Source: a virus | Length of the DNA: 43,214 nucleotides | IMG/VR virus record: IMGVR_UViG_3300010413_000128 | Coordinates: 1 to 43,214 of that record | Strand: one strand, 5' to 3' | Shown here: positions 503 through 42,310 of the stretch, piece after piece | Layout: every line of letters starts with the position of its first letter | Position numbering within the stretch: position 1 is the first letter of the stretch | Made by a program: the position numbers and the translations under genes | Notes under the pieces: generated by a model | Database searches by the model: none | The model's input: only the letters and a program-made list of their open reading frames with translations | Told to the model about the DNA's origin: nothing

Positions 503-2113
503 TTAAGCTGTATTATACGCGTAATGAACTATTACTTTTATCTCTCCAGTACCCGTTTTCCCCCCCGCTGTGCCTACTGTCATAATATGCCCCTTAGACA
601 TAGTGCCTACTGTCATGTCTGCCAAGACATATCTTTTTATATAGCCTAATGCCTTAGATACTTCTGAGGTGGCATTGAAGTAATAATTGTCATCTAGTGC
701 TACACTAGCGTAATATCTTCCAATTCTTATATCTACCCCTGCGTCAGCACTGGAGGCTTCCGTATAAACAAATTCAATCATAGTTATAACTAATGCACAC
801 GGTGCTACAAATAAGTCTACATCTGAAGCCGCGCCAGATAAATCTAAAGCACTGGACATTATATTGTAATCATATGTGTTATTAGTACCGACAGGATTAA
901 CCCCATAAGATGTGTTTCCATAACATATATTCCCTATTATCTTATTATAATCAGCACTAGTTCCTGTCTGTACCCCATATTTCTGTGTAGCAGAACCACC
1001 TTGGTCATCTATACACAGATTGCCTTGTATTAAATTATATAAAGCACTTGCTCCTGCTACTTCTATACCAGCCGATGAAGCAACGGTAACAGAATTTCTA
1101 GCTTCGCAATTAACAACCTGGCAATAACCTGTATTGTTGATATAGAAACCATGCCTTTTGCTACCTATCGATTTACAACCATTGAAGATTACTTTTGCAG
1201 CACTTGTATTAAAACCATCCCATTCCTTGGTATCTATCGCTGTGCAATGAGTGAATATAGTACCCACTGCATCAGAGAGAAATCCATGACCAGAACTGTC
1301 ATCTGCTTCGTTAGCTGCTTCTATTACAGTGCAACCAGATACCTCACAATAAGTTGCCCCCGTGTATACTTGAATACCATGAAAAGCGCCTCTATAGGTT
1401 GTACAATCTTTGACATGTATTCTCGCGCCGTTGATTACAATATTTGCTCCATTTATAGCACTACCTGGGGCACTTCCCGCTCCACTATATTCAGCGTAAA
1501 CCCCAATAATTTCACAATCTGAATTACTGGTGCCTGTGATATTTATATTGTGGTGATATGCACCAGTAAGGGATGCTCTTATAATTTTACTATGTGTCAC
1601 CTTTTGCCATCTTATACCATGAACATCTGCGGTTTGCTTAGCGCCATTAAAATCAAGTATTCCCCCAACAATTTCCAGATAGCTGTTTCCTGAGGCTGTG
1701 TCTGAGTTCACAATACCATGACAATTAGCACCATCGGCAATAGCAATATAAGCCTCTGTCAAATCAAGCCTTGTATATGAATCCATTGAAATAGCTGCTC
1801 CTGTAGTAAAAGAGCCTATTAGTTTAACTGTCTCTATATTTGCCCTACTTGATGTAAGAGCATCTATAGCTAAATTTATCTCTACTTCATCGTCTGCATT
1901 ACTGCATAATTGTACCCTATCCCCTAATAATGCTTTGGCATCTAATGCTTGCTGTCTTATTGATAAAGGAGCATTATTACCTATAACCAAAGCGCTACAA
2001 CCATACAGTGCTAATCCTAATCTATTGTCACCAATCATATTTAATATATGATCTATTAATAATGGTTGATTTAATATGCCGCCATGAACTAAAGAATATC
2101 CCTTATTCATCAT
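503..2113 (-). CDS. Right-handed beta-helix tail spike-like protein
   Basis: 536 aa. Residues roughly 100-430 show the short repeating pattern of parallel beta-helix proteins (pectate-lyase fold), with many 'N/G-x-I/V-x-N/G' turns such as NCHGIVNS, GHGFLSD, RHGFYINN and SYGVNPVG. The last ~110 residues form a separate beta-rich domain (VAPCALVITMIEFVYTE onward) of the kind seen at fibre tips or as trimerisation domains. In phages such proteins bind or cleave surface polysaccharide; that enzymatic role is inference. The start ATG overlaps the stop of the upstream propeller gene (TAATG), so the two are translationally coupled. Confidence 0.8.
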   Translation of the reverse strand: MMNKGYSLVHGGILNQPLLIDHILNMIGDNRLGLALYGCSALVIGNNAPLSIRQQALDAKALLGDRVQLCSNADDEVEINLAIDALTSSRANIETVKLIGSFTTGAAISMDSYTRLDLTEAYIAIADGANCHGIVNSDTASGNSYLEIVGGILDFNGAKQTADVHGIRWQKVTHSKIIRASLTGAYHHNINITGTSNSDCEIIGVYAEYSGAGSAPGSAINGANIVINGARIHVKDCTTYRGAFHGIQVYTGATYCEVSGCTVIEAANEADDSSGHGFLSDAVGTIFTHCTAIDTKEWDGFNTSAAKVIFNGCKSIGSKRHGFYINNTGYCQVVNCEARNSVTVASSAGIEVAGASALYNLIQGNLCIDDQGGSATQKYGVQTGTSADYNKIIGNICYGNTSYGVNPVGTNNTYDYNIMSSALDLSGAASDVDLFVAPCALVITMIEFVYTEASSADAGVDIRIGRYYASVALDDNYYFNATSEVSKALGYIKRYVLADMTVGTMSKGHIMTVGTAGGKTGTGEIKVIVHYAYNTA

Positions 2114-4728
2114 TAAATTTGTATACTGATAGACTTCATTGCATATTTACTTCTGCGAGTTTTACACTCCATAGCCCAATTATCATATTGTTTTTTCCAT
2201 TCGGATTTATCTTGATCAGGGCTTGAATTCATACGTAATCCACATAGATATTTTGCAGCTTCGGCTATTATTATCTGGCCTTCCTTATTAATATCATCTA
2301 TCTCTGTAGTTACAGCAGTTGCACCTCCATAAGTAGATACAGGGGTTGTAAGATGGCCCATTCCTACTATCTCAAATCTTGTGCCATCAATGTAATCATT
2401 ATCAAAATGTAATCTGCCATTAGGCTGAATACTCCAATCATCTATAAGTACCTTTAATGGATTTGGTTCAGGGGTGGTATCACTGGCGTCAGCTCCTATG
2501 AGGCGATACACTTGCATTGGTCTATCTTTATACAAATCCAAATGGTCTATTGCATATTCATATTTACCACCCGCTATAGCATGAGCTTTATCCACATATG
2601 CATCAGCAGATGCAGTATCGTAGTAGATATAGAAACCTAATCCAGTAGGATTATCGGATATCGTATGAGTAACTTTCATAAGTCTCCATGTGCCATCACC
2701 AGGATGATATACCTTACTTGAACTTGTGTGGTCTGTGTGATTCCCGTATGTAGTGGTTACGCCGTCTGATACTGCCAAGCATAATTCACTCGTTCCAGCA
2801 GTCCTCCCCCAACAATAGAAGTTCACTGTTTTACCTGCCATCTGCCACAGATCATAGTTATCATTAGCAGAGCCAGTTAATAACTGTGAAATAGAACCAG
2901 CAGAACCAGATGAGGAAAACTTACAGGATGATTCATTTGACCTGCCGAATACATAATATGTAGACGATTGTGTTGCAGTGAGTGTGTCTAACGTCCAGTT
3001 ATCAGGGTAAGTAGTCTGACTCCATTTCTCAAAATCTCCGTTAATCAACCAGTCACCAAATACAATACTTCGGTCTTGTATCTCTTTATAAACATGTGGA
3101 ATAGCTGCCTTACACCCATGAACTATAGCTTGTTCCTTTTCTGCCCTAGAAAACTTTCTATGTATTTCATAGGTATCTCCATTAGCTATACCGGCAGTAA
3201 AAGGATATGAGCTTGATACCAATATTGTATAAGTAGCTGTAGTAAGTGAGCTTATAACTCTTTCTTCTCCTTCGGGGGCAACACTAGCACCACCCGCATC
3301 TGTTTTTATATAAAGATAAGATGGTTGATCACCCGAAGAACCGTCACTAACCCAATCGCTCTGTTTCTCTATTAGCGCTGTATCTACAAGTGTGTAAGTA
3401 GGATTAGTGGCATTAGTATCTGCCGTTCCTTCAAACCAGTCATCTATTTGTTTTGATAATGCTGTTACTAAATCGTCCATCATGTCCTCCCCTGTTGCCT
3501 GTGGATTTGTAACATAAGCATTGCTACTATCCATAGCATAAAAATAACCATTTGTTCCGTCTATAAACACCAACTGCAAATCGCTGGTATAATCTTCAGG
3601 TACTATCGGATGTCTGCAACTGCTGGTATTCAGCGTAGCTGATAATGACCATACTGTGCCATTGAATGCATACTTACACAATTGAAAAGTAGCATTAGTT
3701 ACATATGCTATTATGGAGCTATTGCTTGTTGGTATTAGGTCGCCATCAGAATACCCATCAACAGAGTCCTGGTACGCATCACAGATAGTGTATTGTGAAC
3801 TCCAAGCACTTCCCGTCCAATGTATATGCTTCATAGATGCCGCAGAATCCGTAGTAGTTTCTAAGGAAAATAACAAATATGGATAACCATTACTATCTAA
3901 TCTTATACAAGGCCCATAGGTTCCTACTTTATAATCTGCTGAGTTGACTACTAAACAATCAGCAAAATCTGTATTCTGATTTATTATGGTACTCGAAGTC
4001 AATTCTGTCCCATCCATTTGATATACTTTGCCATCGCCTAAGTCCATATAAGCATGATATATATTCCTACGCATCTCATCATAGCTAGCACCATAATCAT
4101 CATTATCATAATCATACCAATGCCAAGCCAGATGTATACGTTCATTAGTAGAGTCATAGGCTACATTTCCCAGATAAGTTCTATCACTGGCATCTTGTAT
4201 ATTGATAATTTCTGTTGTTGCTGACCATGAAGTGGAAGTTCCATTAGGTGTAGCAGTCTGGTAATGCAAATCACCATTTGTACCTCTGAAGAAGTGATAC
4301 AAAGTACCATCACTTATCTTCAATAATTTTGGATATGTATGAGCCTCAGTTCCAGCAAGTACATTGCCCATATTAGTCCACTTAGTAATATTCATTGGAT
4401 ATGTTGATACATGATAACGTGGCTCAGTTGCCTCTCCGTGAGTCCCAAATACTACATGAATATATCCATCATCATCTATAATCATACCAGGCGCACCATG
4501 TGAATCATCATCCAGCCGGTTTGAACCTATCCATACAGGAGTTGCCCATTTAGTAGCAGAGGGATTATAGGTTGTGATAAAAGGATCGCACTCATAAGGG
4601 TCTGTTGTGTCCTGTTTGTATTGCCATAGGAAATAGTAACTACCACTATAATAAATAGCATTGGGCCAATTCTGTACCCCATATGTACTGGATGAATCTA
4701 GGTTGTCGGCAAAGTATTCAATTGCCAT
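2113..4728 (-). CDS. BNR_4-like beta-propeller tail fibre with carbohydrate-binding-like domain
   Basis: 871 aa. The N-terminal ~400 residues resemble BNR_4-type propellers: HGAPGMIIDDDGYIHVVFG near residue 75, followed by blades with YHVSTYP, LHYQTATP and YPYLLFSLE. Around residues 575-740 a jelly-roll-like segment starts NGDFEKWSQTTYPDNW, typical of CBM-like glycan-binding domains. Catalytic sialidase-style Asp boxes (SxDxGxTW) are not obvious, so binding rather than hydrolysis is the safer call. It lies in the tail-fibre end of the late operon directly before the beta-helix spike, suggesting a pair of receptor-recognition proteins. Confidence 0.75.
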   Translation of the reverse strand: MAIEYFADNLDSSSTYGVQNWPNAIYYSGSYYFLWQYKQDTTDPYECDPFITTYNPSATKWATPVWIGSNRLDDDSHGAPGMIIDDDGYIHVVFGTHGEATEPRYHVSTYPMNITKWTNMGNVLAGTEAHTYPKLLKISDGTLYHFFRGTNGDLHYQTATPNGTSTSWSATTEIINIQDASDRTYLGNVAYDSTNERIHLAWHWYDYDNDDYGASYDEMRRNIYHAYMDLGDGKVYQMDGTELTSSTIINQNTDFADCLVVNSADYKVGTYGPCIRLDSNGYPYLLFSLETTTDSAASMKHIHWTGSAWSSQYTICDAYQDSVDGYSDGDLIPTSNSSIIAYVTNATFQLCKYAFNGTVWSLSATLNTSSCRHPIVPEDYTSDLQLVFIDGTNGYFYAMDSSNAYVTNPQATGEDMMDDLVTALSKQIDDWFEGTADTNATNPTYTLVDTALIEKQSDWVSDGSSGDQPSYLYIKTDAGGASVAPEGEERVISSLTTATYTILVSSSYPFTAGIANGDTYEIHRKFSRAEKEQAIVHGCKAAIPHVYKEIQDRSIVFGDWLINGDFEKWSQTTYPDNWTLDTLTATQSSTYYVFGRSNESSCKFSSSGSAGSISQLLTGSANDNYDLWQMAGKTVNFYCWGRTAGTSELCLAVSDGVTTTYGNHTDHTSSSKVYHPGDGTWRLMKVTHTISDNPTGLGFYIYYDTASADAYVDKAHAIAGGKYEYAIDHLDLYKDRPMQVYRLIGADASDTTPEPNPLKVLIDDWSIQPNGRLHFDNDYIDGTRFEIVGMGHLTTPVSTYGGATAVTTEIDDINKEGQIIIAEAAKYLCGLRMNSSPDQDKSEWKKQYDNWAMECKTRRSKYAMKSISIQI

Positions 4729-5555: not shown

Positions 5556-6464
5556 CTATGGTAACTGCGCTGTAATCTGGACATCGAGCCAAGTAGTGCC
5601 TGTTCCTGCTCCGTCAATATCGATACGTAATCTATCACCTGTAGTTAAGTCGTCCTCTGCTGTATCAATAACAGCAGGTGTAGCAGCATCTTTACTGTCT
5701 TTCTCATTGGCATCTATTGTGAGAGCGGTACTAAGAACATCGGCAGTTTGGGTAAGATTGTGGATCATTATAGTTACTGCACCTGTGCCAGCAACCATAT
5801 TCGCAGCCACTTCTATAATGTTCCAACCGTTCATGTAAGATGGTATTCGTGGGAAGTAAGCCTTGCCATCTCCGCTGGTTAAAGCAGTTGAATCGTTAAC
5901 TAGTACCGACATTGTTCGTTTACCGTATGCGCTACCAGCCAAACCATCAGGACTTACAGCTCTGGTAGCATCTGTCCCTGTGGTGGTTTCGGCTGCGGTA
6001 GCTATTTCTACTTTACCTGCTGTTGTAGTCGAAGAAGCAGATACCGCAGCATCGACATTACCCGATGATAATGTACCTACCGTTGTGATATTAGCAGAGC
6101 CAACCCATGTACTAATTGCTGTGTTTTCTACATTATTTAAGGATAGGTCTGTTTTAGTTTCTGTATAACTACGACCTTCAATAGTGTCAGCATCAGTAAA
6201 CTTGGCAAAATCATTGGCTACAGGAGTACCGCTGGTGTCAACTGTTCCACTACCAGCAGCAGCTAGTTCAGATAGCGTCTTTGTTCCTGTTACAGCATCG
6301 GTAAAGGTGAGGTTATTAGAACCATCCTTGTCTATATAGGTAGTAGCATTGTCTACTTCAAGACGGGGTACACGTATATTATCCCCATCAATAGGTTCTT
6401 TGTAAGTACCTTGGTCAGACCATTGTGGATTCGGAGATGAATTAACAATTCCGCCATTGGTCAT
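5556..6464 (-). CDS. Phage tail fibre protein
   Basis: 302 aa. The middle (about residues 95-185) has the classic fibre shaft signature: TDLSLNNVENTAIS, then TTTAGKVEIATAAETTTGTDATRAVSPDGLAGS, written here in parts as 'TTAGKVEIATAAET' and 'TRAVSPDGLAGS'. These elements recur in many siphovirus and podovirus side-tail fibres. The C-terminal ~110 residues are a globular beta domain (KAYFPRIPSYMNGWNI onward) seen at the end of many phage structural proteins. It is likely a trimeric host-recognition or shaft protein. The start is 1 nt after the upstream stop, so translation is probably coupled. Confidence 0.85.
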   Translation of the reverse strand: MTNGGIVNSSPNPQWSDQGTYKEPIDGDNIRVPRLEVDNATTYIDKDGSNNLTFTDAVTGTKTLSELAAAGSGTVDTSGTPVANDFAKFTDADTIEGRSYTETKTDLSLNNVENTAISTWVGSANITTVGTLSSGNVDAAVSASSTTTAGKVEIATAAETTTGTDATRAVSPDGLAGSAYGKRTMSVLVNDSTALTSGDGKAYFPRIPSYMNGWNIIEVAANMVAGTGAVTIMIHNLTQTADVLSTALTIDANEKDSKDAATPAVIDTAEDDLTTGDRLRIDIDGAGTGTTWLDVQITAQLP

Positions 6465-8177: not shown

Positions 8178-8534
8178 TCAGTTAGTTCCCGTTTGCCATG
8201 CTTCTTTAATATTGTCACATTGTACTAATTCCCGCTTATCGAAACTAGGCTTAAATCTCAATTGATCCGCTATCTCCATAAGCTCGGCTACAGTATGCTC
8301 TATCCAGTATCTACCGTTATCAAAAGCACCTCCTGGTATTCTGAATTGGTCATGCTTAAACCACTTAGATAACCCCATATCTTTTCGATATTCAGTTGGT
8401 TTATCGTCACGCATCACATAGATTATTTGATAACGATGAAAGCCTTTACTGCCTGGTGATTGAAGATTCATTTCATATAATCCCAAGCAAGGTTCGTCTT
8501 TATCTATATAATGCGTTCCGAATAAGATATTCAT
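8178..8534 (-). CDS. Hypothetical protein
   Basis: 118 aa starting MNILFGTHYIDKDEPCLGLYE. Mixed alpha/beta, soluble, with no recognised motif. Its ATG overlaps the stop of the upstream 54-aa coiled-coil gene (ATGA), indicating coupled translation. It lies between structural genes in the late operon. Function not assigned. Confidence 0.6.
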   Translation of the reverse strand: MNILFGTHYIDKDEPCLGLYEMNLQSPGSKGFHRYQIIYVMRDDKPTEYRKDMGLSKWFKHDQFRIPGGAFDNGRYWIEHTVAELMEIADQLRFKPSFDKRELVQCDNIKEAWQTGTN

Positions 8535-11290: not shown

Positions 11291-12166
11291 TTATGATGTA
11301 GGCGCAGTTGCGTCACTCGCAATCTCATATAGCCAATTCCCAGAACTCCTCTCGCCATAGGCATACTCATCATAGTGGTACAGCTTTGTAGCCCCACCAC
11401 CTATATTTTCAGCCCTAACAGGCACAGTCCTCGGTGAACGGCCTTGTACTAATACAAGTGCTTCTTTAGCAAACACCCCACCTTTAGCATCATCACTTGA
11501 GTCAATAGATATATTCCCATCTTCATATATCATTGCCCCACCTATTTGGCCCCTGAATCCTTCAGCAAACACCCTGGCGGTCATCCCTTCAGGTATAACA
11601 TAAGTACCTACACCTGCAATTATTTCATCATAGATATCCTTTATCTGGTATCCATGAAGTACACAGTAGTATGGCGCGTTACCAGGTTCAGTAGTGTTGC
11701 TACTTATTCTAACAACACCAGCGGAAATATATCCGCTTGTAAGAGTAACTCCTGCTCCGCATAATTGCGTGGTTGCACCATCTATTGCCGTTAACCCATC
11801 CTCATCCTTTTTTCTTTGAACTGCGTTTTGAGCAAGAGAGCCGATCTTTGCGTAGGCATTTTTAGATATCCGATTAGCCACCCTATCCGTAATAACAGTC
11901 TCAATACCGACCACAGTCGGAGTTACGGTCAGTAAACTATCAGAAAGTTGCTGCGGATTGTCTAGTTCTGTAGTTTCTGTGATAGCCTGTGCGGTTATTT
12001 GATCCATAGATACTTCATTCCAGGAAAGACCAATACCTTCACCTAAAGTAACCTTATCACATAACTGAGGAACAACCCCTTCTTGCTCTCTTACTATTCG
12101 TGCAGAACCTATTACAGTTGGTAGACTATCTGCCAACGAGCTAGTAGTAGTATTCCCAACAGTCAT
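11291..12166 (-). CDS. Major capsid protein (HK97-fold candidate)
   Basis: 291 aa starting MTVGNTTTSSLADSLPTVIG. The layout matches phage major capsid proteins of this size: helical N-arm (SARIVREQEGVVPQL), an EIDNPQQL-like E-loop region, a spine helix (VANRISKNAYAKIGSLAQ), then 'DGATTQLCGAGV', and a C-terminal segment with ARVFAEGFRGQIGGAMIYED and GVFAKEALVLVQGR. It follows the scaffold-like gene by 12 nt, the usual order. No N-terminal delta domain or protease is visible, so scaffolding is presumably by the separate upstream gene. Confidence 0.85.
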   Translation of the reverse strand: MTVGNTTTSSLADSLPTVIGSARIVREQEGVVPQLCDKVTLGEGIGLSWNEVSMDQITAQAITETTELDNPQQLSDSLLTVTPTVVGIETVITDRVANRISKNAYAKIGSLAQNAVQRKKDEDGLTAIDGATTQLCGAGVTLTSGYISAGVVRISSNTTEPGNAPYYCVLHGYQIKDIYDEIIAGVGTYVIPEGMTARVFAEGFRGQIGGAMIYEDGNISIDSSDDAKGGVFAKEALVLVQGRSPRTVPVRAENIGGGATKLYHYDEYAYGERSSGNWLYEIASDATAPTS

Positions 12167-26485: not shown

Positions 26486-26685
26486 TCCTTCACCTTATCA
26501 CATTGACATGATTGCAGTTTTACTTCCCATCGGTCACCAAATCTGGGCTCTACAGTGCAACCCTTGAAAAGCCACTCCCCTAATAATTTGCCTGCCTCTT
26601 TCCTCTCGGTACGATCTATATCCATCGCTCCTGTTATTCTCCCACACAAACATACGGCCACAAATCCTGTAGGTTTCTTACTCAT
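26482..26685 (-). CDS. Small hypothetical protein with Cys residues
   Basis: 67 aa: MSKKPTGFVAVCLCGRITG... with CLC near residue 12 and SCQC near the C-terminus, a possible metal site. The ATG overlaps the stop of the RNA ligase gene (ATGA), whose EEKEAE end provides the AGGAGG. Function unknown. Confidence 0.55.
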   Translation of the reverse strand: MSKKPTGFVAVCLCGRITGAMDIDRTERKEAGKLLGEWLFKGCTVEPRFGDRWEVKLQSCQCDKVKE

Positions 26686-27620
26686 TCTGCCTCCTTCTCT
26701 TCCGAACTGTGGCTATCATCAGGATTGTCGATAAATTCCGAAGCCATTAACTTATCTTTATACCACTCAGGTAAACCAGCCGTGATACCACGCTCTATTT
26801 GTTTCCAGAAGTGATTGAATAACTTGTCTTTTATCTCTGCCTCACATTCTTCCTTAGTATCCTGTTTCACGGCATTAATTAAAGACCCTATATCTCTTGG
26901 TGTACCTTCAATAGTACCTAATTCTGTTAGATGCTGAACTGCCTTATGCCACCGTGATTCTGTGCGATACTGTTCTATGAGCAACTGAGTAAAGTCTTTC
27001 CCGCTATTATGTGATGCCTTCCATTCCTTGTTATGCACTTCTTTAAATACTTCGGATACAAATTTGCCAACAGCAAACTTCTTATCATCGGTAAATAAGT
27101 TGTAGTTCTTAATAACAAAACCCTCTATTTTCTGCCCACCTAATATAGATGTTGTATCAAGAAGACCTTTTAGTTCATCTACTATGTTAATCTTACCTTG
27201 AAATAATCGTGGTACTACTTCTAATCCTATTGAGTCCGCTATTTGTGCCTTTTGTTCATAGTCTATATAATCTTCCTCATCCACCATAACATCGAATAGT
27301 ATTAAATTATTACGTGGTACTCGATCATATGCCAATGAGTTATGCTTAGGTTTATTTAAATACTCACAGCGGTACACCCATCCTGGAACTAATTTACTCG
27401 CTATACTTAATACATATTCTACTGCTGTATTAAACATCTTTTCTGGCGCATCTGTATATATCTCAGCACCTTTACTACGGCATTGTAAATCACCATTTAT
27501 TAACCCGAATGAGAATTGAGAACCGTCAATCTTTTCCTCAATTAATACCTCCGAATCTGTTATACCTTTAATCTGCCTATGTCCTATTGCATAAACCTTT
27601 GGATAAGAACTAAGTTTCAT
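26682..27620 (-). CDS. RNA ligase (Rnl2-like nucleotidyltransferase)
   Basis: 312 aa from ATG 27620 (MKLSSYPKVYAIGHRQIKG), with AAGGAGG upstream. Covalent nucleotidyltransferase motifs: motif I EEKIDGSQF with nucleophile Lys at residue 30, CRSKG at 47-51, RCEYL at 84-88, motif IV EGFVIKN at 166-172 and motif V FAVGKFVS with Lys186. Such enzymes adenylate and seal RNA nicks, as in tRNA repair by T4 phage. A separate helical C-terminal domain follows. No polynucleotide kinase is seen nearby. Confidence 0.85.
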   Translation of the reverse strand: MKLSSYPKVYAIGHRQIKGITDSEVLIEEKIDGSQFSFGLINGDLQCRSKGAEIYTDAPEKMFNTAVEYVLSIASKLVPGWVYRCEYLNKPKHNSLAYDRVPRNNLILFDVMVDEEDYIDYEQKAQIADSIGLEVVPRLFQGKINIVDELKGLLDTTSILGGQKIEGFVIKNYNLFTDDKKFAVGKFVSEVFKEVHNKEWKASHNSGKDFTQLLIEQYRTESRWHKAVQHLTELGTIEGTPRDIGSLINAVKQDTKEECEAEIKDKLFNHFWKQIERGITAGLPEWYKDKLMASEFIDNPDDSHSSEEKEAE

Positions 27621-27647
27621 ACTTCCTCCTTGATTCATCATCCCCCC

Positions 27648-30627: not shown

Positions 30628-30641
30628 TCAATAGATACCTA
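30628..30641. repeat. 14-bp direct repeat, left copy
   Basis: TCAATAGATACCTA at 30628-30641, identical to 31476-31489. This copy contains the stop codon of the radical SAM gene. Confidence 0.8.
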
Positions 30642-31469
30642 TCCGACAAATTCAGCATAAGGTATTTTACTAAGCCAATTTTGCCGGCACCAATAGTGCT
30701 GAAAACGCTTCATTTCTTGAACAGTCCAACCTTTTGCTATATAATTATCCTTTTCTAGCGCATTAAGTGGTTGATATCTTTGTAGATATGGTTTGATCCC
30801 CTTAGCTTTTATTGCCTCTGCTCGGTATAATGCATCTTCAGGAGTATCATTGAAGCCAAAAAGAATATAACAACCTATTCGGCTTCTAGGAAATCCCGCA
30901 ATCAATAGGCGATCAATTGCATCCATAGTAATTGTTTCATCTTCTATATTATCAAAGGCGAATCTAAGTTTAGGTAATGTCAAATCTTGTAATCTTTCTA
31001 TATGATGATTAGTTAGTAATCTAGCATCCAACCCCTGATTAAAATCTACTGCTCTAAATATTTTGATCTTATCAATAACATTATTAAAGTGTTTTATACT
31101 AGCTGCCAGTAAATTGTTATCGCATATTATCGGAGCTGGTATCCAGTCTTGTAATTCTCGAAAGGAACCTTCTGTTTTTGGGACAGCACAGAATCTACAC
31201 TGATTTATACAACCCCTTGTCGTAAATGTGGCATCTGGATTATGTTTCCCAAGTGGTAAAGGAGACATGTCTCCACCCACCTCGTCTGCTACATCATAGA
31301 GGTATTCTGGCATTAAACTAACCGCTGGCCCACCAACCCATACTGTTCTTCCAGACTCCTTATACCATTGGCATAATGTATGGGCTTTTGGTAAATGCCA
31401 GGTAAATACCACAGAAATGCATACTATCTCCTCTTCTCTCCAATGTATTATCGATTTACTCCAACTCAT
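30639..31469 (-). CDS. Phage radical SAM protein
   Basis: 276 aa. TTRGCINQCRFCAVPKTEG gives the CxxxCxxC cluster (C87, C91, C94) for the 4Fe-4S/SAM site. Upstream VWVGGPAVSLMPEYLYDV resembles the end of a B12-binding-like region. Later elements include AVDFNQGLDARLLTNHHIE and YILFGFNDTPEDALYRAEA. The same ordered motifs occur in a radical SAM family common in phages, whose substrate is unknown. It is bracketed by a 14-bp direct repeat, suggesting cassette insertion. Confidence 0.85.
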   Translation of the reverse strand: MSWSKSIIHWREEEIVCISVVFTWHLPKAHTLCQWYKESGRTVWVGGPAVSLMPEYLYDVADEVGGDMSPLPLGKHNPDATFTTRGCINQCRFCAVPKTEGSFRELQDWIPAPIICDNNLLAASIKHFNNVIDKIKIFRAVDFNQGLDARLLTNHHIERLQDLTLPKLRFAFDNIEDETITMDAIDRLLIAGFPRSRIGCYILFGFNDTPEDALYRAEAIKAKGIKPYLQRYQPLNALEKDNYIAKGWTVQEMKRFQHYWCRQNWLSKIPYAEFVG

Positions 31470-31524: not shown

Positions 31525-31537
31525 CTAGGTTATCTCC
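31525..31537. repeat. 13-bp direct repeat, left copy
   Basis: CTAGGTTATCTCC at 31525-31537, repeated at 32041-32053. On the coding strand both read GGAGATAACCTAG, giving the shared C-terminal EIT and stop of two adjacent genes. Confidence 0.75.
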
Positions 31538-32040
31538 ATGTTACCTTGTACTTTCCTCTCTACTGTGACTATGGTGTCATTATGGGCACGGCCATGACAT
31601 ACAAGTAGTATCTCTATAATTTCAAAGCCATGTGTTTTCCCCATCCCTATAGAGTTCCAACCAAAGCTAATAGCCATCCCTCCAACCTTTATAATCTCTC
31701 TTATTACTGGCCTAAGACCACCATAATTCAATTCCATACCTGTTACCGGCAAACCAATAGAATCATATAATTCTTTAAGTTGCCTTAGTGAATATGGTGG
31801 ATCAAATAGTATACCCTCATAATAACCATTCAGATTATTTAAATACTCCGAGGCATCTATATGGCTTTTGGCACTGGATGATGGGTCTAGATCATTAGTA
31901 AACTCGGCAGGACTATACATACCGGCAAAGGGATCAACCCACCCCTTACCATCGCCAACATACCGAGACAATAATTCAGCAATAGGCTTGATGGTGAATG
32001 TCCACTTATTAGGCATAGCCCACACTCTATTGATTATCAT
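31525..32040 (-). CDS. DPPY-type DNA N-methyltransferase
   Basis: 171 aa. VDPFAGMYSPAEFTNDLDP near residue 36 is a SAM-binding FxG-type loop followed by an acidic residue; GILFDPPYSLRQLKELY near residue 77 is the catalytic DPPY motif of amino-methyltransferases. It is shorter than a full restriction methylase and has no evident specificity domain. It could modify phage DNA against host restriction. It follows a 54-aa Cys-rich gene with no gap and ends in the same short sequence as that gene. Confidence 0.75.
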   Translation of the reverse strand: MIINRVWAMPNKWTFTIKPIAELLSRYVGDGKGWVDPFAGMYSPAEFTNDLDPSSSAKSHIDASEYLNNLNGYYEGILFDPPYSLRQLKELYDSIGLPVTGMELNYGGLRPVIREIIKVGGMAISFGWNSIGMGKTHGFEIIEILLVCHGRAHNDTIVTVERKVQGNMEIT

Positions 32041-32545: not shown

Positions 32546-32653
32546 TTATAGCAGGCTGTTTTGTGGTCTGTAACTTGCTACTATATCCTTAATTAGTACA
32601 TACCTGAACCCCGCAAACTCCAGCAGCTTATCATTCATCGCCTTCTGGTTCAT
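32546..32653 (-). CDS. 35-aa fragment resembling the N-terminus of ABA-sandwich proteins
   Basis: MNQKAMNDKLLEFAGFRYV... The 'MNDKLLEFAGFR' start is typical of longer phage proteins (BC1872-like), but this one stops after 35 residues, so it may be a truncated remnant. ATGA overlap with the upstream stop. Confidence 0.45.
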   Translation of the reverse strand: MNQKAMNDKLLEFAGFRYVLIKDIVASYRPQNSLL

Positions 32654-32991
32654 TTAGTTGCTCTTCTGGCTATATTGTAACAATCTAAACAAATAGCCTC
32701 ATTTTGATAAGATAATATACCTGTCTTATTTTTACATTTGCAACATTTAATCCCTCTTCTAATTTTTTTTGCACATTTTATACACCAAAATGAGTTAGCT
32801 ACTCTTTCATATATACCACAGTTGTGACATATTGTTTCTAAAGGGTTTTTAACTGTTCGGACTCCACAAGTTTTACAATAACTTCCATTATAGCTAGTAT
32901 ATGTCCCTTTACTTTCACTATACTCAAGATTTTTAGATATTTGTTTTAATGTTGGTGTTTTACAAACAGGGCATATATTATTATGTTCCAT
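32650..32991 (-). CDS. Multi-zinc-ribbon protein
   Basis: 113 aa from ATG 32991 (MEHNNICPVCKTPTLKQ), selected for GGAAGGAGG. Six Cys pairs occur along the chain: CPVC, CKTC, CHNC, CIKC, CCKC and CLDC, so about three zinc ribbons. It overlaps its upstream neighbour by 11 nt. Possibly nucleic-acid binding; function unknown. Confidence 0.65.
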   Translation of the reverse strand: MEHNNICPVCKTPTLKQISKNLEYSESKGTYTSYNGSYCKTCGVRTVKNPLETICHNCGIYERVANSFWCIKCAKKIRRGIKCCKCKNKTGILSYQNEAICLDCYNIARRATK

Positions 32992-33217
32992 CTTCGACCT
33001 CCTTCCCAAACTGTTGCCATATCTCCACAGGAATATAGACATACTTGCTCTCTGGAAATGTAGCATAAACGTGCCTCTCCAACTCATCAAATATCTTTTT
33101 CGCCTGGGCTTTGGCGATGATTCTACTCCCAGGAATTCTCTTCCTTGGTAATTCTTCAGGTTTAATACCCCATTCTGTAGCTAAAGCATTGTATATTTCA
33201 TCATCCTTCAGTAACAT
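32981..33217 (-). CDS. Hypothetical protein (78 aa)
   Basis: MLLKDDEIYNALATEWGIKP... with a basic middle (RKRIPGSRIIAKAQAKK) and PVEIWQQFGKEVEDGT at the end. Mostly helical. Its start overlaps the upstream gene by 17 nt. Not recognised. Confidence 0.55.
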   Translation of the reverse strand: MLLKDDEIYNALATEWGIKPEELPRKRIPGSRIIAKAQAKKIFDELERHVYATFPESKYVYIPVEIWQQFGKEVEDGT

Positions 33218-36310: not shown

Positions 36311-36463
36311 CTATAGACCTGCTATTATTCTCTCCAAGAGAGTAAGGTGTCTAGTAGTGATCTCGCCCTCTGCAATAGACTCCGCACCGATTGTCGGCTC
36401 AACAATACCAGCGATAATAAGCACAAGCATATCAATATCAGACTGATCAATAGTCGTATCTCC
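36311..36463 (-). pseudogene. Out-of-frame dockerin-like extension of the cohesin gene
   Basis: One base off the cohesin frame, just after the T6 run at 36465-36470, an open frame reads GDTTIDQSDIDMLVLIIAG, then IVEPTIGAESIAEGE and TTRHLTLLERIIAGL before TAG. Two 'xxDIxxLxxIIAG(I/L)' halves separated by a Pro linker mimic type I dockerin duplicated segments, although the Ca-binding Asp/Asn positions are degenerate. If the T run were five, cohesin and dockerin would be one protein of about 183 aa. Confidence 0.6.
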
Positions 36464-36863
36464 GAAAAAAGACGGTATCAGCACCACTCCATCCTGCAGA
36501 TATCTCTATCGCATAGCAGTCATTGATAAACCCATTATCTATGTCGATGGTGATATTACCGTCATCCAGTGCCTTGAATCGTAGTGTTGCCAGTGTCCCG
36601 TCACCAGTTATCCCTTCTTGAATTCCTTCTACATTGACTACCACTCTGATGTCTTCACCGTAGTTAGGATTGACTATGGCTATCGGTATTGTGTGGCCTC
36701 CGATTTCTCCGGCAAAGGTGTCGATATAGTTTGCCTTGTCTCTTGGTATGCTTATGTCGAACTGTCCTGCATCGAAGTTTGTCACCCCTGTGACGTGAAC
36801 TACAACATCAAACTCCTGTCCAATCTCTACTTGCTGTGGTACTTCTAAAGTAATGTCTGCCAT
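36447..36863 (-). CDS. Cohesin-domain protein
   Basis: 138 aa. Begins MADITLEVPQQVEIGQEFDV, then VTGVTNFDAGQFDISIP, IRVVVNVEGIQEGITGDG and TLATLRFKALDDGNITI: the beta-sandwich order and GxGTLATLxFKA motif of cohesin domains. AAGGAGG precedes the ATG. No signal peptide. Cohesins bind dockerins in cellulosome and other anaerobe/archaeal systems, so on a phage it could be an adhesion or fibre-docking module. The visible frame ends FFRRYDY after a T6 run. Confidence 0.8.
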   Translation of the reverse strand: MADITLEVPQQVEIGQEFDVVVHVTGVTNFDAGQFDISIPRDKANYIDTFAGEIGGHTIPIAIVNPNYGEDIRVVVNVEGIQEGITGDGTLATLRFKALDDGNITIDIDNGFINDCYAIEISAGWSGADTVFFRRYDY

Positions 36864-36872
36864 GATTCCTCC

Positions 36873-37130
36873 TTAATAAGTGAATACTCGGTGTTGCCCC
36901 ATAACCTGTTCTTGAATAGTCAACTCTTTTATCTCGCCTAGTTCGACAAGCCGATCTATACAAGCCAGTTGATCCCAACTATCCCCACTAAACCCCATCG
37001 TAGCCTCTTGCATCCTGAAAGCACCTGCCGTTTTCAATAAAGCCTTAGCTTTATCCCTGATTGCTAAGAACATCACTTGTCCTGATTCAGTGAATAAGTT
37101 AGCTCTTTGTGTTTGGTAATTATATGCCAT
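36873..37130 (-). CDS. Conserved small phage protein (85 aa)
   Basis: MAYNYQTQRANLFTESGQVM, then LLKTAGAFRMQEATMGFSGDSWDQL (residues ~32-56, quoted in part) and CIDRLVELGEIKEL. This set of motifs recurs in phage proteins of the same length. TAAGGAGG precedes the ATG. It looks like a winged-helix-like small protein; role unknown. Confidence 0.7.
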   Translation of the reverse strand: MAYNYQTQRANLFTESGQVMFLAIRDKAKALLKTAGAFRMQEATMGFSGDSWDQLACIDRLVELGEIKELTIQEQVMGQHRVFTY

Positions 37131-37555: not shown

Positions 37556-38128
37556 CTAACATATCTCCTCCCACTTCTTTAGCTTCTTTAGCCATTCATC
37601 AAAACCAGCGTTAGCTAGTTTCTTGGCTATAGATTTAACGGTTGAGTGCTTAAACATAGTCTTAATATTGCCCCAACAAGGCATACGGACTATTATCTGT
37701 CCTATTACTGCCCATTCAGCTTGGGTGAATAAGGTTATTTCTTGTCTTCTCACTACTTCAGAAAAGAAGTAATGAGAGTTTTGATAGCCTTTTGCGCCTC
37801 CGAGATCAGCGCCTTCGAGATAAGCGCCTTCGAGATAAGCGCCTTCGAGATCAGCGCCTTCGAGATAAGCGCCTCCGAGATAAGCGCCTCTGAGATCAGC
37901 GCCTCTGAGATCAGCGCCTCCGAGATCAGCGCCTCCGAGATCAGCGCCTTCGAGATAAGCGCCTTCGAGATCAGCGCCTTCGAGATAAGCGCCTCCGAGA
38001 TAAGCGCCTCTGAGATCAGCGCCTCTGAGATCAGCGCCTCTATTCTTCTCCATGCACTCTTTAAGACTCTCATACTCCCCTGAAACAATAACTTTACCTG
38101 TAAACCTACGTTTGATCTCGATTAACAT
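37556..38128 (-). CDS. Pentapeptide-repeat protein
   Basis: 190 aa. N-terminal strand-rich opener ([19 protein letters not shown]), then about 16 repeats of A(D/Y)L(R/G/E)G from residue ~30, which form a right-handed quadrilateral beta-helix, then a globular C-terminus ([19 protein letters not shown] to [12 protein letters not shown]). DNA-mimic roles are known for some family members (Qnr, MfpA) but cannot be assumed. The array contains a 120-nt duplicated block. Confidence 0.85.
37800..38039. repeat. 16 tandem 15-bp units in two 120-bp blocks
   Basis: Units of the form (t/c)(c/t)gagat(a/c)agcgcct. Units 1-8 and 9-16 agree at seven of eight positions (only 2 versus 10 differ), so the array grew by duplication of an eight-unit block. 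Confidence 0.9.
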
Positions 38129-39940: not shown

Positions 39941-40096
39941 CTATTGTCTCTCCTTGTAGGCACTGTAAAAACCTGTCTCCTCTTCCACTCTAGCCTGATA
40001 CCCCTCATGCCATGCTAGCCAGCAGGGGTTCTCAACAGTCATATGCTCAGGTTCTACCGAGTCATCTGGTATGTACCGCTGATATGGACACTTCAT
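39941..40096 (-). CDS. Small hypothetical protein (51 aa)
   Basis: MKCPYQRYIPDDSVEPEHMT then NPCWLAWHEGYQARVEEE. Start TAATG-coupled to the Ala-rich gene whose KKEE end supplies AGGAGGA. Two Cys residues. Function unknown. Confidence 0.55.
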   Translation of the reverse strand: MKCPYQRYIPDDSVEPEHMTVENPCWLAWHEGYQARVEEETGFYSAYKERQ

Positions 40097-40794
40097 TATT
40101 CCTCCTTCTTATCTACAACAGACTTAATAATAGGTAAAATATCAATACCTGATGCCTTTGCTGCTGCCTCTGCTGCCCATTCTGCTGCCCTTGCTGCCCT
40201 TGCTGCTGCCCATGCTGCTGCCCATGCTGCCTCTGCTGCCCTTGCTGCTGCCCATGCTGCTGCCCATGCTGCCTCTGCTGCCCTTGCTGCTGCCCATGCT
40301 GCTGCCCATGCTGCCCTTGCTGCCCATGCTGCTGCCCATGCTGCCCTTGCTGCCCTTGCTGCCCATGCTGCCCCCCTTGCTGTCCCTTCAGAACGATCAG
40401 TGTTATTAATCCACCCATGCGCCCAATTAACAAAAGATGCTTCGTCGTAGTCTTCAAGAGCGATACGAATAGCTATCTCTACTCGCTGTTCTGTAGTTAT
40501 CACAGGTAAAGGGATTTGTTTTATAGTTGTGAGTGATTTCATGCCTATTTTCAACCTATCATCTTCTATCCTCCGACACTTAGTTTCACACTCCCATAGA
40601 TGGGCAGTCTCCAGGTCATAATCGCCATGTATTCGGTTACAAAATATGGCTAGCAACGGGTCACGATAGGCGTGGATAAGTGATCCCGAACACAGGATAT
40701 ACCCACTGGCTTTAGCGGAGTGTTTAACCCCTTCTCCCCATTGCATATCACCATGTGTTTGGTCTTTTTCATCCGTTAGTTTGTATACTTTCAT
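40096..40794 (-). CDS. Ala/Trp-repeat protein with DUF7666-like N-terminus
   Basis: 232 aa from ATG 40794 (MKVYKLTDEKDQTHGDMQW), overlapping the upstream stop (TGATG). The first ~90 residues are globular: an opening 'MKVYKxTD' and SLIHAYRDPLLAIFCN fit the DUF7666-like phage domain. Residues ~140-215 are a tandem run of WAAAWAARAA-type units that would form a long amphipathic Ala helix with regularly spaced Trp and Arg. Such Ala/Trp repeats are known in phage proteins but have no defined role. Confidence 0.7.
   Translation of the reverse strand: MKVYKLTDEKDQTHGDMQWGEGVKHSAKASGYILCSGSLIHAYRDPLLAIFCNRIHGDYDLETAHLWECETKCRRIEDDRLKIGMKSLTTIKQIPLPVITTEQRVEIAIRIALEDYDEASFVNWAHGWINNTDRSEGTARGAAWAARAARAAWAAAWAARAAWAAAWAAARAAEAAWAAAWAAARAAEAAWAAAWAAARAARAAEWAAEAAAKASGIDILPIIKSVVDKKEE
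40157..40380. repeat. Ala/Trp-coding tandem repeat
   Basis: A GC-rich run of tgctgccc(a/t)tgctgc-like units in phase with codons for Ala, Trp and Arg in the leftward gene. Long open frames on the other five frames here are artefacts of the repeat. Boundaries approximate. Confidence 0.85.
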
Positions 40795-41117
40795 CATTCC
40801 TCCAGTTCCGCCAGGGCTTGTTGTGTTTCTATGTACAACAAGTTCTGTTGCTGATTTAGGCTTCCCTCTACGGTTAATACGTTGTCTAATATTATCAAAG
40901 TATGCGCCGCTAATTTAGCTAGCCTCTCGTGGTTGTTCACCGCCTTGACGATGAACTGGGCGTTGGCTTTGGATTCCTCTTTTTCACCATAACATTCACA
41001 TACTACTAAACCATATTCACCATTACCATTATTAATTTCTTCAGCATCTAATACCATAGAAAATACGCCATTGTTTTTAGTCTTAGATAATTTCCAAGGT
41101 GTCTCTGAGTGTTCCAT
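40794..41117 (-). CDS. MEHS-TPW family protein, leftward paralogue
   Basis: 107 aa: MEHSETPWKLSKTKNNGVFS, then SKANAQFIVKAVNNHERLA, ending ALAELEE. Shares its opening, core and end with the rightward gene at 24203-24586, but lacks that copy's Cys cluster. AAGGAGGACTA precedes the ATG in both. Function unknown. Confidence 0.7.
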   Translation of the reverse strand: MEHSETPWKLSKTKNNGVFSMVLDAEEINNGNGEYGLVVCECYGEKEESKANAQFIVKAVNNHERLAKLAAHTLIILDNVLTVEGSLNQQQNLLYIETQQALAELEE

Positions 41118-41190: not shown

Positions 41191-41556
41191 TCACTCCTTC
41201 CTTACTTCCCTCAACCACTCAGTTAAGACATTCTTTGCATAATCAATAGGTAAGTCATATACCCATTCAGGCGGGTACTCCTCTTTGTCGTCATACTCCG
41301 CACAGTCAAAGCAAGCGTGGGGAAGCTTACTCCCCTTGAGGCAAGTCTCCAGGGTCATACAACCGTCTGTTCGGATGCCTATTTTGAACTCATAGCCCAA
41401 TTTGCAAGAGACTTTGCCGTCCAAGACCTGTGCCTTGAAGCAATCAAATGTAAGACGCTGATTGTATCTACGCTTCCTTGCCCTCATCTTGGCTAGTTCC
41501 TCATCTTCGGGAGCCGAGAACATGCCATGATAGCGGATGGTTGATTGTTTAGGCAT
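41191..41556 (-). CDS. Cys-containing hypothetical protein (121 aa)
   Basis: From ATG 41556 (MPKQSTIRYHGMFSAPEDEE), with AAGGAC upstream. Cys residues at FDCFKAQ, VSCKLGYEF, DGCMTLETCLKGSK and HACFDCAEYDD suggest metal binding. Overlaps the end of the upstream pentapeptide gene by 8 nt. Not recognised. Confidence 0.6.
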   Translation of the reverse strand: MPKQSTIRYHGMFSAPEDEELAKMRARKRRYNQRLTFDCFKAQVLDGKVSCKLGYEFKIGIRTDGCMTLETCLKGSKLPHACFDCAEYDDKEEYPPEWVYDLPIDYAKNVLTEWLREVRKE

Positions 41557-42310
41557 TGGAGTCCTTCGGTAATAGATTCCCTTTCCAATCACACTCCCCT
41601 ATCTTACGGCATTTACTTACTCGGAATTTACCATCGGAGGCTACGGGGCAAACAGCATCCTTTGTATTGAAAGAAAACATTAAGAGTCTATCGCTGTCTC
41701 TCCTCTTTTCACTCAAGCACCAGGCAAAAGTGGCTAAGTTTACACCAGCCCCACATTGGACGAATATATCTGTATCTATATCTTTGACTTTGAATCTAGT
41801 GCCATCTAAATAATTTATTCCACCGTAGTGAATACCATAACCATCTTCATCAACTATCTTATAAGCTCTGGCTGTGCCCTTATGGTCAGGAACTATCCCG
41901 ATATACGCCAGCCAGTTTATTCCATCCAACATACAATTTTGCAGGTCAGCCTCTTGCAGGTCAACCCCTCGCAGGTTAGCCTCTTGCAGGTCAACCCCTC
42001 GCAGGTTAGCCCCTCGCAGGTTAGCCCCTCGCAGGTCAGCCCCTTGCAGGTCAGCCTCTTGCAGGTCAACCCCTCGCAGGTCAGCCCATCGCAGGTTAGC
42101 CTCTCGCAGGTCAGCCTCTTGCAGGTCAGCCCCTCGCAGGTCAGCCCATCGCAGGTTAGCCCATCGCAGGTCAGCCTCTTGCAGGTTAGCCTCTTGCAGG
42201 TCAGCCTCTTGCAGGTAAGCCCCTCGCAGGTCAGCCCGTTGCCCCCCCTCTTCCTTGCATCGCCATTTCCAATGCTTTTGTAATATCTCTTTTAGTTCAA
42301 CGTCTTCCAC
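41549..42310 (-). CDS. Second pentapeptide-repeat protein
   Basis: 253 aa, GTG start at 42310 with AGGAGGA five nt upstream. After a short helical start (ELKEILQKHWKWRCKEEGG) come about 20 repeats of A(D/N)L(Q/R)(E/G/W) from residue ~25 to 125, then a ~125-residue C-terminal domain containing GINWLAYIGIVPDHKGTARAY and DIFVQCGAGVNLATFAWC. The second domain occurs with pentapeptide repeats in several phage proteins. It is distinct in sequence from the 37556 gene's tail. Confidence 0.85.
   Translation of the reverse strand: MEDVELKEILQKHWKWRCKEEGGQRADLRGAYLQEADLQEANLQEADLRWANLRWADLRGADLQEADLREANLRWADLRGVDLQEADLQGADLRGANLRGANLRGVDLQEANLRGVDLQEADLQNCMLDGINWLAYIGIVPDHKGTARAYKIVDEDGYGIHYGGINYLDGTRFKVKDIDTDIFVQCGAGVNLATFAWCLSEKRRDSDRLLMFSFNTKDAVCPVASDGKFRVSKCRKIGECDWKGNLLPKDSNA
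41941..42240. repeat. 20 tandem 15-bp pentapeptide-coding units
   Basis: Units such as gcaggtcagcctctt and gcaggttagcccctc, 300 nt in all, inside the pentapeptide gene. Variation is at third and adjacent bases, giving Q/R, D/N, E/G/W alternation. Confidence 0.9.

Follow-up and report, generated by a model that had tools for sequence, protein, structure and literature searches.

Bacteria and archaea use cohesins as docking modules. Single cohesins outside any scaffoldin are represented by the non-cellulosomal cohesins of Archaeoglobus fulgidus (2xdh) and Clostridium perfringens (2jh2, 2vo8), and the gene described here resembles them in encoding one such module, with the same predicted β-sandwich over residues 1–124. 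Unlike these proteins, it is encoded by a phage, is without an evident signal peptide or anchor, and has about 12–20% structural-alignment identity to them; no close sequence relative was found. The highest structural Z scores of the phage cohesin (11.5–12.0) were obtained with cellulosomal type I cohesin-dockerin pairs (1ohz, 2ccl, 1anu). In contrast to those pairs, the tail that follows the phage cohesin is without most calcium ligands and without a curated dockerin match, and no catalytic partner is seen alongside. ANME archaea have proteins in which cohesins are combined with a dockerin in a context other than cellulose degradation (PMC9012536); those proteins are cellular and contain up to five cohesins, whereas the phage gene is a short open reading frame (ORF) with a frame break. 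The same paper mentions a phage contig only in passing. The break can further be compared with +1 ribosomal shifting at UUU_Ynn (argI, YopN-TyeA and the influenza PA-X cassette), with which it shares the tetranucleotide class and the +1 direction; in contrast to these cases, the phage site is a candidate that an indel may have produced incidentally.

The chief finding is that a phage carries a lone cohesin-fold gene, which is unusual; a switch between two products, the identity of the tail as a dockerin, and fibre building are not established. The features concerned are listed in Table 1.

Table 1. Location of the main features in the window, that is, the whole 43,214-base record analysed
Feature	Position	Strand	Basis or remark
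Cohesin-fold ORF, 138 aa, ATG start	36447–36863	minus	Pfam PF00963 and AF2 model matches
TGA stop of the cohesin frame	36447–36449	minus	Sequence
T6 run (A6 on the plus strand), GUC UUU UUU CGG in the cohesin frame	36465–36470	minus	Candidate site of an indel and of a +1 ribosomal shift (UUU_CGG)
+1-frame coding tail, 51 codons and TAG	36311–36466	minus	Codon usage; custom dockerin HMM; weakly dockerin-like helical hairpin
Alternative separate overlapping gene, 57 aa, GTG start, SD-like AGGA	36311–36484	minus	SD energy
Upstream 85-aa gene	36873–37130	minus	Stop 9 nt before the cohesin ATG
Capsid protein	11291–12166	minus	68 relatives in viral contigs, identity up to 78%

The cohesin-fold gene

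The cohesin ORF is preceded by a strong Shine-Dalgarno (SD) sequence (AAGGAGGA, −11.1 kcal/mol). Its 138-residue product matches PF00963 with 24.1 bits and an E-value of 4.6e-5, exactly at the curated cut-off of 24.1; joined or alternative readings of the ORF scored 22.9–24.2 bits, and the score in the genome search, 22.5 bits, was under the cut-off. The AlphaFold2 (AF2) model, calculated from the single sequence, has a pLDDT of 58.7 and a pTM of 0.58. Foldseek returned cohesins as the best matches to this model, led by the non-cellulosomal cohesin of A. fulgidus, and in a second structural alignment the first 22 rows were all cohesins, with Z scores of 10.5–12.0. Among the matches listed from a viral structure library, none was under an E-value of 1e-3, which is not evidence of absence. 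The cohesin domain claimed in the preliminary description is therefore borne out by the profile match at its cut-off and by a model whose first matches, with Z scores of up to 12.0, are cohesins, and on this predicted structure and profile the 138-aa ORF is a real cohesin fold. The predicted fold spans about residues 1–124 (aligned residues 1 to 123–124). Since it is complete before the T run, the frame break leaves it undamaged, and truncation of the protein would be tolerable.

Phage setting and distribution

The window corresponds to the virus record IMGVR_UViG_3300010413_000128 and encodes a phage terminase, a replicative helicase and an exonuclease. Alignment of the capsid protein against species genomes and genome contigs gave zero matches and so did not identify a host. 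Homologues of an RNA ligase (26682–27641), a radical SAM protein (30639–31469) and a DNA methyltransferase (31525–32040), all on the minus strand, were recognized with PHROGs. Two pentapeptide-repeat-like proteins with repeated A[DY]L[RE]G units are also encoded on the minus strand (37556–38128 and 41549–42310); opposite the former, the other strand also contains long open frames (37742–38083). In Rfam, all families stayed below threshold across the window. Near the cohesin gene, promoter-like sites occur in chance number, and three terminator-like sites were found against 1.4 expected, which do not mark the ends of the gene.

The 85-aa gene immediately upstream has six relatives in other phages, with 54–63% identity, none of which (0/6) is followed by a cohesin. 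Its family is common to diverse phages, and one phage record (L090) contains two copies with identical protein sequence, at 7–264 and 946–1203, about 0.7 kb apart. A cohesin is likewise absent from the phages related in the early region. Neither a cohesin nor a dockerin was detectable in 48 phage records that share the capsid or terminase, many of which are fragments. Searches of viral and genome contigs, phages and plasmids detected no relative of the cohesin, of the tail or of the joined protein, the viral and genome scans being able to reach close relatives only. Cohesin-dockerin fusions, which the preliminary description proposed to look for in related phages, were thus not encountered, as no homologue was found in either fused or split form. 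A search with a consensus cohesin retrieved cellular cohesins on 12 plasmid records and, among 50,697 phage records, one marginal, unannotated match. Cohesins are thus almost absent from the phage collection searched. The earlier remark that docking modules on a phage would be unusual holds for the cohesin, which looks like single-gene cargo.

Two further loci came to light in these searches. A 963-aa protein encoded at 1201–4092 of a 33-kb viral contig (L084) contains YGDANGDGIIDLTDAALV and then DGYITATDAQAI, that is, dockerin-like calcium loops on a virus. On the haloarchaeal plasmid NZ_CP100467.1 (213142–217043), an S8 protease with a terminal dockerin-like pair is encoded directly before a short cohesin gene, and the two may represent a trans pair that occurs naturally in archaea.

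The frame break and the coding tail

On the sense strand, the cohesin ORF ends with GTC TTT TTT CGG AGA TAC GAC TAT TGA, the stop lying seven codons after GTC. From 36505 onwards the +1 frame is open; it reads FGDTTIDQ...IIAGL* from the T run and ends with a TAG at 36311–36313; one T fewer would join cohesin and tail into a protein of 183 aa. This layout had been outlined before, and both its coordinates and its arithmetic are right. Runs of at least six A or T are rare in the genes of this phage, with 0.019 expected per 60 nt. The longest A/T run of the window is a T8 on the plus strand (A8 in the sense strand) at 32763–32770, inside the minus-strand ORF 32650–33090, and is a likelier slippage site than the T6 run. 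No frame splits were found elsewhere in the 17 kb covered by relatives, which indicates that the sequence is not generally broken.

Codon usage was scored with a table trained on 19 long genes of this phage. The tail reaches +0.231 bits/codon, compared with a mean of 0.267 (sd 0.122) for phage genes and −0.535 for off-frame segments of the same strand, none of which scores as high. Reverse frames over the tail score below zero, and opposite-strand stretches elsewhere can reach 0.2–0.4. The tail is a true coding sequence. The switch point between the two frames is most likely at 36464–36479, overlapping the T run, and positions near 36494 score about 5 bits lower. A junction further upstream (residues ...ISADGVVLIPSFFGD) was considered because it would result in a typical last cohesin strand; codon usage is about 5 bits against it, the Pfam score did not improve, and it was rejected. 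By the same measure, the top 45-codon score of the window (1.0) belongs to an open stretch on the plus strand at 40019–40447, opposite the minus-strand gene 40096–40797 (0.8), and is probably a composition effect.

The preliminary description regarded the tail as a dockerin-like duplication. Part of this holds, as the tail is coding and ranks first among 400 open stretches of the window (6.6 versus 3.6 bits) with a home-made dockerin profile built from 11 dockerin domains; the tail itself scored 7.2 bits against this profile, and one of 2784 shuffles was as good. The rest is less well borne out: the duplication within the tail is weak (p about 0.03 by shuffling), and the tail is below every curated threshold, as Pfam, NCBIfam and the PDB gave no match, and PF00404 (cut-off 22.9 bits) gave nothing at E≤10 in the Pfam scan or the genome search. 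Type I dockerins are recognized here by a pair of calcium-binding loops carrying D/N at positions 1, 3, 5 and 12. Read by eye against the dockerin alignment behind the custom profile, these positions are V, F, D and D in the first repeat, which keeps two of the four ligands, and E, I, E and H in the second, which keeps none in canonical form. Prediction of the joined 183-aa protein, which had been suggested as a check, gave one clear helix in the tail (residues 167–182), with a tail pLDDT of about 30–40; this low value says little because AF2 was run without an alignment. At most, the tail may be called "dockerin-like, degenerate". That it is instead an unrelated short helical extension is a lesser but serious possibility, compatible with any mechanism of the frame break: the missing curated matches, the single clear helix and the ligand positions agree with such an extension, and its rank in the custom profile and its place directly after a cohesin argue against it. 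The self-complementary docking modules and fibre building that had been envisaged find no support in any result obtained here, because the tail is without most dockerin calcium ligands.

Explanations of the frame break

We infer that the two frames were once a single gene of about 183 codons, which would have encoded a cohesin-fold protein with a C-terminal degenerate dockerin-like hairpin, and that a single-base insertion in or beside the T run put the tail out of frame in the sequenced copy. The insertion may have arisen naturally by mutation; an error of assembly is less likely. This indel is favoured over the other readings of the break, with a confidence somewhat short of even. It is consistent with a tail that scores as a coding frame where its neighbouring frames do not, with a codon-usage switch point at the T run, a kind of run seldom seen in these genes, with a cohesin fold that is complete before the break, and with a tail that resembles a module often accompanying cohesins and comes first in the dockerin profile. 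A genome-wide prokaryotic survey, which also counts in favour of an indel, attributed the majority of unclustered frame transitions to sequencing errors, recent indels or overlapping genes, with those at 3' ends leaning towards indels (PMC3711429). Single-gene ancestry is nevertheless unproven because no intact relative was found, and the lack of a second frame split in the relative-covered 17 kb speaks against a sequence that is error-prone in general. Nor would a random indel require the exact UUU_CGG context, UUU_CGN being expected 0.0018 times in the 20-codon zone and occurring once elsewhere among 11,403 codon pairs of the phage. The same context is, on the other hand, what suggests programmed or leaky +1 frameshifting, by which some ribosomes would make a 183-aa cohesin-tail protein and others the cohesin alone, the P-site tRNA-Phe slipping from UUU to UUC as the A site stands at CGG, an infrequent codon (25 of the 309 Arg codons among the training genes). 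UUU_Ynn has been described as a sequence on which bacterial ribosomes shift by +1 with particular ease even when no stop is adjacent, and the minimal influenza A cassette is UCC_UUU_CGU (PMC5009743); UUU_CGG belongs to this shift-prone class, has the correct direction and lies inside the switch zone. However, insertion of a T into TTT-TTC-GG makes the identical motif automatically, which is in keeping with the indel, and the motif was picked after the site had been seen. Rather than in the A site, the stop lies five codons beyond the T run, no homologue was found that would show conservation of the site and both frames, the downstream RNA fold is no stronger than that of shuffles (z +2.00 and +0.39), and the sequence contains no SD-like stimulator within a few nucleotides upstream. 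Frameshift stimulators are usual, not universal. On balance, +1 shifting, including the tRNA-Phe slip that it would involve, is possible but unlikely.

Two other arrangements would yield the tail without ribosomal shifting. The tail could be a 57-aa protein of its own, started at the GTG at 36484 and translated by coupling with the cohesin gene, so that a cohesin and a small helical partner would act in trans. An AGGA 7 nt before this GTG has an SD energy of −6.5 kcal/mol, near the median of about −7 for genes of the phage, and neighbouring ORFs elsewhere overlap by about 40 nt (for example at 5556–5592 and 8178–8218). An equally good SD is found, though, at 10% of internal NTG codons, GTG is rare among the starts scored, and a codon-usage switch at 36464–36479 is better than one at 36484–36494 by about 5 bits, although true overlaps could show the same; we regard a separate gene as improbable. 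Slippage of RNA polymerase or reversible T5/T6 switching, which the preliminary description offered as the source of both cohesin and cohesin-dockerin products, is very unlikely, and polymerase slippage fits less well than a +1 ribosomal shift at UUU_CGG. The homopolymer does lie at the switch point, and a GC-containing hairpin could form 5' of it, yet the upstream fold is ordinary (z −0.59) and six Ts are short for phase variation. For the E. coli enzyme, no slippage was detectable below seven Ts, which makes slippage at T6 unlikely for a cellular polymerase; a T7-type polymerase can slip on four Ts, and a stem-loop-assisted case on T6–T9 is cited in the same work (PMC6260861). No T7-type polymerase was seen among the named proteins of the phage.

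With an indel in a once-single gene as the preferred reading, the present gene would mainly yield the 138-aa protein, an intact cohesin fold with about 15 extra residues. As this protein is without an evident signal peptide, it would act in the infected cell or be freed at lysis. By analogy with other cohesins, we infer that its binding partner may be a helical host protein of the dockerin type or else its own tail. Should +1 shifting at UUU_CGG operate instead, the gene might yield cohesin in free form and cohesin bearing a dockerin-derived tail that does not depend on calcium, in a set ratio of capped and self-linking units, a scheme that we consider improbable. If a +1 shift does operate, the proportion of docking-competent forms would be set by recoding, which would be a rare case. 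A cohesin borne by a phage suggests that phages may exploit or jam the surface scaffolds of their hosts.
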